The notes below the pieces were generated by a model. The model made no database searches. It was not told the origin of the DNA and saw nothing but the letters and a program-made list of their open reading frames with translations. This document shows, piece by piece, positions 7,624 through 13,312 of a stretch of DNA of 64,000 nucleotides (its first letter is position 1; the number at the start of each line of letters is the position of its first letter). The DNA is from Leucosporidium creatinivorum (taxonomy: Eukaryota > Basidiomycota > Microbotryomycetes > Leucosporidiales > Leucosporidiaceae). Position numbers and translations under genes: made by a program. The stretch is from contig BCKL01000002.1 in the NCBI GenBank assembly GCA_001600635.1, positions 685,425 through 749,424 on the forward strand. Reading direction: 5' to 3'.

Positions 7624-10600
7624 CTACAGAGTCCCTCTTTCCCTTCCACTCTCTACAGCCAGCACCTCCGTCTCTCCCTCTCCCAACCCGCTCGGCACGC
7701 CCATGGACCGAATCCTCCTCTTGACAGCCACGTTCGTCGTCGCCTTGCCATCCACCGAACTCTTGAGATGCGTCTCCATCTCCCTCTTGACCTTCTGCAG
7801 CCTTCCCGCCCAGTAGATCCTCTCCTCCCTCTCCGCCTCCTTCTCTTCCTGACTCTCGGCATCCTCCATCTCGCTCAACGCAAGCGCCGATCCTTGTCCA
7901 TCCCTCCTCGGTCCACCAAATCGCATGAGGTACATATCACCCGGGCTCTTGGAGAGATTGCCCAGCCCTGGAGGAGCGCCGAGCGAGTTGCGACGATTGC
8001 GGTCGACGAAGGAGGTCTGGCCGTCGCCGGCGGAGAGGTGCTCGGTGTGGGTGATGGGGACGACGAGGGAGTTGAGGAGGGAAGAGTGAGAGTACGAGCG
8101 GTAGGCGTAGAGGTATGATCGCTCGAAGCATTGGAGCCAGTGCACGCGGGATTGGAAGGAGAGGTCGAGGGCAGGCGGGCGAGGAGAGATGGGAGGCGTA
8201 GAGGCGGGAGAGGAGTTGAGCGAGGCAGATAGGGGTGGGAGAGTAAGGTAGAGGTCGAGAGTTGCGGCGGTGAAGGCGCCGAGGGAGAGGGGAGTGAGGC
8301 GCTCCGAGCTGGTCGAGAGAGGTAGCAGTTCGAGCTTGATGAGGTGGTCATGCTCTGATGTAAGAGTGATAGAGTCAGCTTAGACCGAGCAGCGCAAGCA
8401 ACGCCGTCGACTCACCAGTCTTGCCCGACAAGTCGGCCACTCCAAGGACTCTCGCGATCCCTACTCCCTCCAACACTCTCAATACTCCATCTTCGCCCGT
8501 AACAGACGATCTCCTCCTGGTAGATCCCATCTTGGGTGTCCATCTGCCCGCCTCACTACCCTTCGGCGCAGCAATGACGACCATGTCCGAGAAGACAAAC
8601 ACCTGCACGCTCGTCTCCTTGGCCTTGGTCTTGACAACTCGCCTGGAAGAGCGTCGAACGGGCATAGTATCGGAGAAGGCGGAAGGAGAGCCTTGCGGGG
8701 CGGAAGCGGAAGGGCGAGATGTGGCGGTGGAGGAAGCGACGGTGTTGGAATCATCGCTGTTGCTGTTGCTGGTGGAAGAGGTGTTGGAGACCATCGAGTT
8801 TGGCCGCAGGAAGTTGGTGAAAGGAGGAGGTGCGATCGAGGAAGGCTCGCTTGTGAGGGCGGAGGCGAAGGTGCTGTGTCGCGAGTTGGCCGAGTCGGGA
8901 GTGGTGAGGGGCGAAGGCCAGACTCCGAGCTCGCCAGAATCGTATGCGCCAGCAGAGCTCGATCCCGAGTCGTCCGAGACGTAGGATTGGGGTCGCGAGT
9001 TGTCGGGCGAGAAGCGAAGGACGGGAGGCGAGTCGAGTCCAAAGGCTCCTCCGCCGACCCTCCCGCCGCCAGCTGCACGGCGCCTTCCATCAGCCTCAAG
9101 CGCCTGTCGATCCTTGTCACTGATGAGGACGCGCCGAAGCTGACCCTGGTAGATGAGGCGACGATCCCGTCTCGCCAGCTGGAAGTCGGAGGGAAGGCCG
9201 CGAAGGCGAGCAGCGATCTGCTTGATTTGCTCGTATTCGTCCTCGCGGGTCTTGACTTCTTGCATGACGCGGATGATGGTGTCGGTGGATTCGAGTAGAG
9301 CGAGGGTGTCGAGGTAGTCGGGGTGAGAAGGAGGCGTAAGGTCGGCGAGTTGCTGAAGAAGGGAAGCGACGTTAGCGCTGAGCTCTAGGGCTACGACCAC
9401 CTCGAACTCACCTTGAAAAACAGGGTATACTTCATCAGCCTCTGCACCGGCTTCAGCAGGTAGCTGCTGAGCGACATGCCTCTGCACTCGGGCAGCGCGC
9501 TCTGCATCCTCATAAACTCGCCGAAGTCGCTGCTGGGGTCCACCGTCATGACGTCGATCATCTTGGTGACGGCCTCGAAGCGAACGAGGTAAGGCTGGTG
9601 GATTTCGAGGCGGAGGACGTAAGGGATGAACGCTGAGGCGACTTGGAGGACGACGGAGGATGGCGAGGCGCGCCGAGCTGCTTGAAGAGCTGAGGAGATC
9701 TCCGAGTGAAGCTGTGGCGGATCAAGTCAGCGAAAGCGCTTTGCTACGCTAGAGGACGACTTACGTATACGATATCTGTCGCCCAATCGAGCAGTCTCGA
9801 TACCGGCACTGGCACGCCCTTGATCCAACCCCCTTGCTCCCTCCTCAATGGCAAAGCAAACAACTCCATCACACTCTTCAACCCCTCGACGAAGCTCTTC
9901 TCCGTCTCGCACAACTCCCAAATGACCTCCTGCCTCCTCAGCTCGGTAGCGCCGAACTGAGCGAGCAGCGACTCGTATTCCTCGGTCGAGATGGTGGAGC
10001 GCCAAGTGCGCATGGAGAGAGGTGCGGGTGACATGGCGCTGGGTGAGGAGGAGAGGGAAGCTGGACTGGGAGAGGGTTGATAGCTGGGAGAGGCGGGGGA
10101 GGAGAGGAAGGAGGTGGTCGATGCTCGAGAAGCGAGACGAGGGGAGGGTGTCGGCGGACCAGATTGACGACGAGGAGGGGTCGGACTGAATGGTGAAGAA
10201 GGACCTGGCGACTCGGATGGGGAGGCCATGGATTCGGGAGCGGTGTTGTACGAGGTATTGTCCGATCCGCCCCTCTTCGCCGGAGGTCGACTCATGCTGC
10301 CGTACTGCTGCGACGGCCTCCGCTGCAGCACCGACGCCTGTCGCTTCTCATTCTCCTCGCGCTTCTCCTCCGCCTCGGCCATCTCCTTCAGACTCTGTAC
10401 CGACGTCGACCTGCTCCGCCCAATCGTCGTGAAGACACTCGAAAGCCTTCTCATCGACTTGGAGGACGACATGCCTCCCGAGGTCCTAGGTCTTGGTTTG
10501 GCGAGGCCTTGCCCACCGCTCGCGTCCATCGAGTTGCGGCGATTCAGAGTCGAGTCCACGGGCGAAGGGACCGGACTTCCCTCGCGAGAGATGGGAGTCG

Positions 10601-11861
10601 AAGAGGGAGGGGTCTGGAGAGAGGGGGACGGTGCTGGAGAGCTGCGAGTCGAGGATGTACGAGAGCGCGAGGGGGCGGTGTTGACGCGCATGAGGGAGCT
10701 CTTGCGCCGAGGAGGTTCTGGTCGGTCGAAGGGGGTGGGAGAGTTGAACGATGTGCGAATGGAGGGCGGGATGGGAGTTGATGAGGATGGGAGAGAGCGA
10801 TGGCTGGAGTCTTGAATGTCTGTGGGTGATGCAACGGCATGAGATTGGGATGGGAAGGGGTAGGAGGGCGAGTCGGTGCTGGAGGAGGCGGTCGGGCCGA
10901 GGGGAGTCGACGCGGGGGGGTTGCCTTCGAGCGAGGTGGTCCTTCGAGTGAGCAGAGGCCTCGAGATCGAATCGTAGCCCGACCCCGCGAACATCTCTAG
11001 ACTCAAGCCCAGCCCGTCGTTACGCCGCTCGGCGACCCTGCTCGACAGCCGCTGCTCGTCCTGCAGCGTGAACTCGCGCGAGCCCGATCGCGAGAGATTG
11101 CGATGAGCTTGCACGAGTTGACGGATGGATGTCGGCGCTTCGTCGTCGTGTGCGCCGTCTGCAGGCGAATCCTCGGCGGAGTCGAAAGTCGACGGCCCCT
11201 CCCCTGGCGTTCGGTCGTCGTCGCTGTAGCGGAACGAGATGGGGATCTCGTCGGGGTCGGTGATTCGGAGCGTCCGTAGGGTGCGCGACATGGTGGGGGA
11301 GTTGTCGAGGATGGTGGGCATCGGCGGTGGGAAGTCGTCTCTTGAAGTCCGCCGAGAGACCCTTCCCTTCTTTCCACCCGAGTTCGGCGCTCCGTCGTCT
11401 TCGTCGGCGGTAACGAAGCTGTCCGTCTCGCTGGCTAGTCCATCGACGTCGAATGTCGAGGCTGTCGGCGAGACGGGGTTCGAGTGAAGCGAGCTCTCCC
11501 GGACGGGCAAAGCTGCCAAGAGATCGCCTGAGCCCCGACGACTCGAGAGACGTCTCTCCCCGATGCTGGATCCCAAGCTCGATAGCGAGCTCCTCCTAGC
11601 CTCTGCCCATACGACAGCCGGGTCTTGCGCCCCGCCTTCCCCTTCGCTGCTCCTTCTCGAAGTCGCCGCGAGCCCTCTCGGCGTAGAGAGCACAGGGTCG
11701 TCCATCGAGTCGGTTGAAGTTGATGCTGGTAATGAAGGGTGCGACTTCTTATTGGAGGTGGGAAAGATGGCGCGGCGAGGAGAGCGAAGGGGGCGCGGAG
11801 GAGGAGTGCGAGAGGAAGAGCGTAGAGAGGAGCGAGAGGAGGACCGAGGTGGGCTCTCCAT
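7624..11861 (-). CDS. Rho guanine nucleotide exchange factor (DH domain plus PH-like region)
   Basis: Exons are 11861-9765, 9711-9412, 9352-8416 and 8354-7624 (1,354 aa; all phases close). Residues 1 to about 630 are Ser/Pro/Arg-rich and disordered. A Dbl-homology domain spans roughly 640-865: it opens with RRQEVIWELCETEKSFVEGL and contains the conserved helix SSYLLKPVQRLMKYTLFFK. The following 150-250 residues, with QLARRDRRLIYQGQLRRVL and later VQVFVFSDMVVIAAPKG, fit a PH domain broken by a Ser-rich insert. DH-PH proteins load GTP onto Rho/Cdc42 GTPases at the cortex to direct polarity and cell-wall growth. The start is the first in-frame ATG of the long exon; an upstream coding exon cannot be excluded. 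Confidence 0.85.
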
Positions 11862-12816
11862 TGTTGCTGCTTCTGGATCGAGCGTGAGGAATGATAGGCC
11901 CGAGAGTAGCGCTGGACGAGGCCCGACAGCTGTTGGCGGCGAGGAGGGTCAGATTATGCACCCGACGGAGCTCATTTGAAGCGAGCTGTGCTACAGCAGA
12001 AGAGGCTCAACATCCACTTACAGTCCTGCTGCTGCTGTCTCCGCTCTGCTAGCCCATTCGCCCCGCTGCCATCCTCAAGAGGCCGCTCGCTCGTGCTGGC
12101 CAAGGGTTCTCCGTCTCGCATCCCAGTCCTGATCGACTAGGGGAGCAAGACGAGATTGTAGTCGTGTAGAGTTCCTCTTGCTGCTAGAGGGCCTTGGTGC
12201 TGGTCGATGTGAGGTTTTGGTCGAGCAGCCGCCCGCGCGGGGGTGACCTGAGGCTGGGCGCACGGCGAAGGGGCGAGATGCGCTAGTATTCCTGAGTGGT
12301 CCTGGCTGCAGGACGATAGCTAGAGGGGTGATTCTCTGCTGTAACGAACGTCGGTGTGAGGAGAGCAGGCAATGACGAGGTGATGGGCGGAGGACGAAGA
12401 GCGAAGGCACTTGGTCGCTCGGCGGCAGTCGAGCTCTCAGAACTCTCGTGTCATCGCTCAATTAACCCGTGGTTTGCTCGAACGGGTAGGTTGCTTATTC
12501 TCCTGCAATTGGCGCTATACCTTGACCAGCTTGCCATCCAGCGGAGCAGCTCCGACCTCGCAGGCGGCGGGGCTTCGCTCGCCCGAGGCAGATGTGAGTG
12601 AAACAAGTACAAAAGCCTTTGCAGGGCCGTACAGCCGTCGTCGTCGAAATACAAGTCCTCTCTCCTCCGCCTCCTCCGAGTCCGAACCCTCCCTCCTTCT
12701 CTCCAGCGCCGAAGCTCCGCGACCCTTCCCCTTGCTGCCATCCGAAGCGGTCGTATCGAGGTGATGTAGGATCGTGTGAGGGTCGGAGGAGGGTGCGAAG
12801 GGTGTGTGAATGTTGC
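11862..12816. other. Intergenic: RhoGEF promoter and RPB12 3' flank
   Basis: This is about 950 bp between the RhoGEF start and the RPB12 stop, both leftward. A short acidic/basic open frame (about 12780-12530 on the minus strand) has no recognisable family and is not called. No RNA gene is recognised. Confidence 0.4.
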
Positions 12817-13312
12817 TTAGCGAGCCTCGAATTGTACCTGTACGCGCAGAAGGTCAGCAAAGCCGATCGAAGATGGGCTGAGCAAAGTCCAGTCCAACTC
12901 ACCACTGCGAAGCGATGAAGAGACCGCAGAGAATGGCGCAGGGTGTAGCGATGAGTGTGAAGCATCGACGGTCAGCTTCCTGCTCTTGTACAGCGCTCCG
13001 ACGAGCTACAGCGGCCCTTCCCAGCTGCCGCATCGCAACAAGGTCTGCCCTCGGCTCAAATTCCCACTCACTTCGCTTGATACGCTTCTTGTACATCATC
13101 CTGCACCCGCACTCCCTGCAACGAATGGGCTCGCGCGCCTTGATCTCGTTGCTCGAAGCGCAATCTGAGGCAGAAGGTTAAGTTCAGCGTTTTGAAGCCG
13201 AGTAAGCAGCGGAGAGCTGTAGGAGAACAAGAGACTTACCAGCGCAGAGATACTCGACTGCTACAGGTGCAGCGCGAGGGACGAAACCCTGTCCTTGAGG
13301 CGGGGCGTTCAT
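12817..13312 (-). CDS. RPB12: RNA polymerases I, II and III shared subunit RPABC4 (Rpb12)
   Basis: Predicted exons are 13312-13240 (73 nt), 13164-13072 (93 nt), 12904-12903 (2 nt) and 12837-12817 (21 nt), giving 62 aa, normal for a family of about 58-70. The N-terminus is short and proline-rich. The zinc ribbon is complete: YLCADC then CRECGC, followed by [10 protein letters not shown] and the C-terminus MVQFEAR. Yeast and human homologues end KRLVQFEAR and KRLVVFDAR. To reach this ending the mRNA must join the terminal A of exon 2, a TG, and GTACAATTC. The only TG flanked by splice signals is at 12904-12903 (CGCAG|TG|GTGAGT). Skipping it shifts the frame and loses the conserved tail. The subunit sits in the core of all three nuclear polymerases. 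The next gene is divergent, 129 bp away. Confidence 0.9.
12903..12904 (-). other. RPB12: Predicted 2-nucleotide exon of RPB12
   Basis: The minus strand reads TTCGCAG|TG|GTGAGTTGG. It joins the A ending exon 2 to make the ATG (Met) codon between KR and VQFEAR. The upstream intron is 167 nt and the downstream one 65 nt; the downstream intron has a CTGAC 18 nt before its AG. Inference from sequence and family conservation; no transcript was seen. Confidence 0.75.

Follow-up and report, generated by a model that had tools for sequence, protein, structure and literature searches.

The RPB12 locus of Leucosporidium creatinivorum

RPB12 (RPABC4) is a zinc-ribbon subunit common to RNA polymerases I, II and III. 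In Leucosporidium creatinivorum (Microbotryomycetes), the gene is located on the minus strand at 13312-12817 of the window, that is, of the whole 64-kb stretch of DNA that was analysed, and its segments are given in Table 1. A Pfam scan placed the PF03604 zinc ribbon at residues 21-52 of the product, scoring 56.5 bits (cut-off 24). The 27.7-Mb, 63-contig genome contains a single match to RPB12 (42-aa query), and a second copy with a plain gene structure, which according to the initial annotation would have spoken against its reading, was thus looked for and not found. The 234-nt double-intron stretch also has one match in the genome and, with one match each for the gene and the intron pair, nothing points to a repeated introner.

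Elsewhere in the window, the ORF 9744-11948 (minus strand) finds its best matches in DH-domain (RhoGEF, PF00621) proteins, with 84% identity to a Leucosporidium creatinivorum DH-domain protein over 175 residues. A Pfam scan of 10 of the 20 window ORFs of at least 350 aa gave no match.

Table 1. Segments and splicing signals of RPB12 in the window (slashes in motifs, here and in the text, mark splice boundaries)
Feature	Position	Strand	Length	Remarks
Exon 1	13240..13312	-	73 nt	Start codon
Intron 1	13165..13239	-	75 nt	GTAAGT..CAG
Exon 2	13072..13164	-	93 nt	Most of zinc ribbon and KKRIKR; last base is A of the Met codon
Intron 2	12905..13071	-	167 nt	Phase 1; GTGAGT..CGCAG
CTGAC, branch-point-like	12971..12975	-		At start of the intron 2 AG-free tract; putative assignment
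AG-free tract	12907..12975	-	69 nt	5' of acceptor CAG/TG
Exon 3	12903..12904	-	2 nt	TG; completes Met codon of KR-M-VQFEAR
Intron 3	12838..12902	-	65 nt	Phase 0; GTGAGT..TACAG
Last exon	12817..12837	-	21 nt	VQFEAR-stop; length includes stop

A putative two-nucleotide exon restores the reading frame

The third exon consists of TG alone and is directly flanked by AG and GT signals (CGCAG/TG/GTGAGT). When it is included, translation yields a 62-aa RPB12 with the C-terminus KRMVQFEAR, while skipping leads to a frameshift that ends in KRSTIRGSL. The conserved [M/L/V]-VQFEAR-like tail was obtained only with the TG exon, and solved RPB12 chains, which we take to be those of fission yeast (3h0g) and of a mammal (28jc), end in KRMVQFEAR and KRLVVFDAR, respectively. 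The PF03604 score is the same for both tails and Pfam is therefore blind to the inclusion of TG. RPB12 is described as essential for yeast, where charge changes in the C-terminal domain are reported to have impaired growth or been lethal (Rubbi et al., cited in PMC2680338).

Introns were enumerated as GT-AG or GC-AG pairs of at least 30 nt, with donors taken from nucleotide 61 of exon 2 onwards and up to where the last exon begins. The 252 single introns that resulted all failed to give KR-(0 to 3 aa)-[VILM]QFEAR. Among the 21,921 ordered two-intron combinations, nested ones included, eight distinct products carried this pattern, and the TG exon was the only one of them with exactly one residue before VQFEAR, which is the conserved length. 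The position, flanking signals and frame that the initial annotation had given for the exon are thus confirmed in the sequence, together with the tail that it predicted and the frameshift on skipping, and the sequence offers no alternative canonical solution. Moreover, only two of the 12 GTs of the 234-nt stretch belong to a GTRAGT donor, and the TG-exon model uses both.

To estimate how likely such an arrangement is to arise by chance, the inner 222 of the 234 nt were dinucleotide-shuffled 20,000 times. A bare AG-NN-GT was found in 8,850 shuffles, which indicates that it is the strength of the flanking signals that matters. Indeed, CAG-NN-GTRAGT was found in 20 shuffles, the looser YAG-NN-GTRNGT in 71 and YAG-TG-GTRAGT in two. 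Across both strands of the window, YAG-NN-GTRNGT occurs four times and YAG-TG-GTRAGT once; the other three matches to the looser pattern are at 12589 (+), 31446 (-) and 19416 (-). Folding of the double-intron stretch revealed no special RNA structure (z +1.68, 192 of 200 shuffles folding at least as well).

The acceptor itself looks like a used site. Intron 2 has 12 AGs upstream of the 69-nt AG-free tract; when intron 2 was shuffled 20,000 times, a tract of at least this length appeared in 11 cases, and one this long precedes 45 of the 5,317 minus-strand AGs in the window. From this tract and the CTGAC at its start, the CAG/TG acceptor looks genuine. The branch A of this CTGAC is 67 nt from the intron end, and alternative branch-like sites, TTCAC, CTCAT and TTCAT, are found at 53, 47 and 11 nt. 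Intron 3 contains one CTGAC branch-like site, whose A (12854) lies 16 nt before the end of the intron.

RPB12 tails in Microbotryomycetes

A first protein search gathered 98 RPB12 rows (P numbers below), with a query that carried the Met tail and possibly favoured such rows. All 80 non-Microbotryomycete rows ended in MVQFEAR, against none of the 18 Microbotryomycete rows (14 of them named and the other 4 assigned to the class by sequence), a contrast that is drawn from this first search alone. After a profile search (120 of 921 matches listed), the named Microbotryomycete rows amounted to 16 from 14 species and none ended in MVQFEAR. The class was looked up for Leucosporidium, Meredithblackwellia, Sporobolomyces roseus, Microbotryum intermedium, Rhodotorula and Rhodosporidiobolus, and was extended to congeners. 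A Fisher test was set aside, as it pooled the search with the M-containing query and the profile search, whose rows include read-through models.

In the Microbotryomycete rows the mismatch sits at the Met codon of KR-M-VQFEAR. Six of the 16 named rows (P0002, P0005, P0012, P0040, P0063 and P0090) run from KR into what appears to be intron 2, their S corresponding to A/GT... Three others (P0019, P0093 and P0103) match, at seven of seven residues, the frameshift that results from joining exon 2 to the last exon and skipping TG. This frameshift fits none of the 133 other-group rows that could be compared (of 142, nine having too short a tail). As for the remaining named rows, P0035 shows the Met, P0006 starts from a different acceptor and P0068 ends at KR. 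Finally, P0001 (Rhodotorula graminis) and P0003 (R. toruloides) read KRKVQFEAR and KRSVQFEAR, with a single residue and no Met.

The DNA of these relatives was deduced at codon level from translated, and often wrong, gene models. The TG unit would account for P0005 and P0006, as would one plain intron, and the TG unit itself does not show in the tails of P0002, P0012, P0040, P0063, P0068, P0092 and P0101. A search for the RPB12 DNA of relatives in viral and genome contig collections returned pattern matches and no confirmed relative. In P0101 (Meredithblackwellia eburnea), the tail KR-RFNSRLG fits, by hand decoding, the last exon translated in a different frame and preceded or joined by one additional G; the split may lie differently in this species, perhaps around an even smaller exon.

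At protein level, three cases are discriminating and suggest that the TG arrangement is visible in relatives. The ORF of P0105 stays open across both introns and gives S-K-Q..L-T-V, V-S-R-Y..S-S-Q and VQFEAR, as would be expected of A/GTAAGCAR..ACAG/TG/GTNAGY..CAG/GTNCAR, the two introns measuring 84 and 78 nt. Its tail matches that of Sporobolomyces roseus P0090, in which exactly the 26 codons of intron 3 are missing. In S. ruberrimus (P0035), KR-M-V-S..P-Q-VQFEAR corresponds to intron 2 removed at A/TG and a 72-nt intron 3 retained. The third case is the metagenomic P0102, identical to Leucosporidium creatinivorum RPB12 over the 30 exon-2 residues tested. It enters intron 2 and ends in Q-W 57 codons past KR, where L. 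creatinivorum reads Q-W-stop. The Q-W end implies CAR-TGG at this place, with TRR or TGA next in case the record terminates at a stop codon. As only 28 of the 57 read-through residues match L. creatinivorum, the surrounding intron would have diverged while CAR-TGG was kept. The expectation that related species share the AG-TG-GT arrangement is therefore borne out at protein level by P0105 with P0090, P0035 and P0102, and fails for P0001 and P0003. These two records are real counter-signals for their own species and, if they are transcript-based, splicing differs there.

In L. creatinivorum, exon 2 and intron 2 (12899-13177, minus strand) form one open frame of 92 aa with Q-W-stop at the 2-nt exon. 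An RPB12 isoform that retains intron 2 is conceivable; against it, P0094, P0100 and P0002 end at most three codons past KR.

Intron positions in other Basidiomycota

The two intron positions also seem to occur outside the Microbotryomycetes. In both searches taken together (the second with 120 of 921 matches listed), 19 of 142 other-group rows read KRS.., which fits a single phase-1 intron A/GT..AG/TG. P0122 reads through a 54-nt phase-1 intron to ..T-V-VQFEAR. In the Lentinula row P0127 (..LLQW-SNSKPAR), hand decoding gives CAG/TG followed by GTN-CAR-TTY in a shifted frame; here TG is contiguous with the last exon, in which it differs from P0102. In parallel, P0115, P0121, P0130 and P0138 read KRMV[SC].., as a phase-0 intron directly behind ATG, at the site of intron 3, would have it, and P0115 and P0130 continue to ..LQ-LHFEAR. 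These four rows are similar to P0111 and P0125, two named rows from smut fungi. Judging from these tails, the A/TG and ATG/GT positions each seem to occur singly elsewhere in Basidiomycota and to be both occupied in L. creatinivorum.

Alternative explanations

Other readings of the locus have to be weighed against the two-intron model. A single intron with non-canonical ends, for example GT-AC, which would produce AAG, or an AG donor, which would add no residue, would lead to KR-K-VQFEAR or KR-VQFEAR and is unlikely. In its favour, tails with one residue and no Met are annotated for R. graminis and R. toruloides. Nevertheless, such ends are needed because none of the 252 GT-AG or GC-AG introns solves the frame, and among the 111 rows with the tail pattern 108 have M and one has L, K and S being confined to the two Rhodotorula rows. 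This intron would also leave both CAG/TG/GTGAGT and the AG-free tract without explanation. The removal of all 234 nt as one intron, with either a frameshifted RPB12 tail or reliance on another copy, is very unlikely. The gene models P0019, P0093 and P0103 fit exactly this skip, but it destroys the VQFEAR that is kept in the 80 non-Microbotryomycete rows of the first search. A frameshifted tail is difficult to reconcile with the reported essentiality of RPB12 in yeast and the harmful or lethal charge changes in its C-terminal domain (PMC2680338), and reliance on another copy with the single genomic match.

Two further possibilities are extremely improbable. The first is a nested excision, similar to that of stwintrons, in which an inner intron lies within a splice site belonging to the outer one. 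One product, KRIQFEAR, does arise from eight nested combinations, but four of the eight, on inspection, have an inner intron with a weak GC donor. Furthermore, KRIQFEAR is one residue short with its V altered, and no nested combination has the conserved length. The second is an assembly or sequencing error creating a false frameshift that TG merely appears to correct. A single assembly was available, which leaves room for such an error; against it, independent records of relatives show trouble or the TG unit at the same codon.

Proposed splicing of the RPB12 transcript

We therefore favour, with a probability of about 90%, a RPB12 gene of four coding exons in which the third is TG and two U2-type introns 2 nt apart are removed one after another. 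Both introns, at A/TG (phase 1) and ATG/GT (phase 0), would be of the ordinary U2 type. The initial annotation, which suggested that stepwise or recursive splicing may be needed, saw a difficulty in the fact that so small an exon defies exon definition. This premise is of little weight, as the introns are short (167 and 65 nt) and intron definition is the expected mode of splicing in fungi with short introns. Introns 2 and 3 would thus be excised sequentially by intron definition and presumably without special factors. On steric grounds an ordered removal is likely, because two spliceosomes could not flank 2 nt simultaneously. Intron 2 would probably leave first since its acceptor is transcribed earlier, and the reverse order is possible. 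Excision of intron 2 would leave TG as the last two bases of a 95-nt exon, and the donor of this exon, GTGAGT, could then be used.

Relation to known very small exons

Exons of 1 nt have already been described in fungi and plants. In the Fusarium gene CYP621A, the available text of PMC12940212 describes a 1-nt exon between AG and GT that restores the frame in a conserved motif, is kept across many Fusarium species, was missed by annotation and is confirmed by RNA reads. It resembles RPB12 as a frame-restoring exon of less than 3 nt in a fungal nuclear gene, with AG/GT flanks and failed annotation. CYP621A, however, has 1 nt in a rarely expressed P450 of Ascomycota, whereas RPB12 has 2 nt in an essential housekeeping subunit. 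In addition, its authors propose a rescue by a cryptic exon (PMC12940212, same text), while in RPB12 two intron positions, each attested on its own elsewhere, both seem to be occupied. In plants, the accessible parts of the respective papers report a 1-nt exon of APC11, constitutive in Arabidopsis and demonstrated with cDNA and reporter constructs (PMC4674806), and a 1-nt exon of VPS55 with a conserved GTRAGT donor, demonstrated by RNA-seq and RT-PCR (PMC8831610). They share with RPB12 an ultra-small exon in a conserved gene and a systematic misannotation, but are plant exons of 1 nt. Closer in taxonomy, bglA of basidiomycetous yeasts comprises three microexon genes with shortest exons of 5, 6 and 18 bp, identified by cDNA comparison as far as PMC9142197 describes them. 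These are likewise microexons of intron-rich basidiomycetous yeasts, but longer, from 5 bp up. The same portion of that paper mentions GC-AG introns beside bglA microexons in yeasts including the Microbotryomycete Hamamotoa singularis, and a GC-AG intron is a conceivable route to the tails of P0001 and P0003.

Two other systems were compared with RPB12. Stwintrons, in the parts of PMC5639578 and PMC6616335 that were available, are also adjacent fungal introns that need consecutive excision; in these, a splice signal of the outer intron is interrupted by the inner one, whereas both RPB12 introns are complete with two coding nucleotides between them. As no nested combination preserves the length of the tail either, RPB12 was not classified as a stwintron. 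Ratchet points, as outlined in the accessible part of PMC8605326, also bring together an acceptor and a donor, the first splice joining a site that later serves as donor. They nevertheless have 0 nt between AG and GT, long introns and a cryptic exon, while in RPB12 the introns are short and 2 nt would remain in the mRNA. The TG was therefore not regarded as a ratchet point. Three marks of an ultra-small (1-2 nt) microexon are instead present, namely flanking AG and GT, a need for the frame and, in the three discriminating cases, protein-level conservation in relatives. No report of a 2-nt exon in RPB12 was found in the literature searched (open-licence PMC papers), and the available portion of a 2026 review (PMC13149111) contained nothing further on exons of 1-2 nt. 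The 2-nt exon of RPB12 is an addition to the already known 1-nt exons of plants and Fusarium.

Significance for the Microbotryomycetes

Among the matches listed, all 16 named RPB12 records from Microbotryomycetes fail to match at the same codon. It is somewhat favoured that the TG exon is old and fixed throughout the class, the ancient A/TG position (Agaricomycetes) and the ATG/GT position (Ustilaginomycotina-like) being both filled; the pair may even go back to the ancestor of Basidiomycota, one or the other intron having been lost later. This suggests a simple origin of ultra-small exons, in which two neighbouring intron positions become occupied together. If the exon is indeed fixed in the class, all three RNA polymerases of every Microbotryomycete cell would depend on a splicing event that spans 2 nt.
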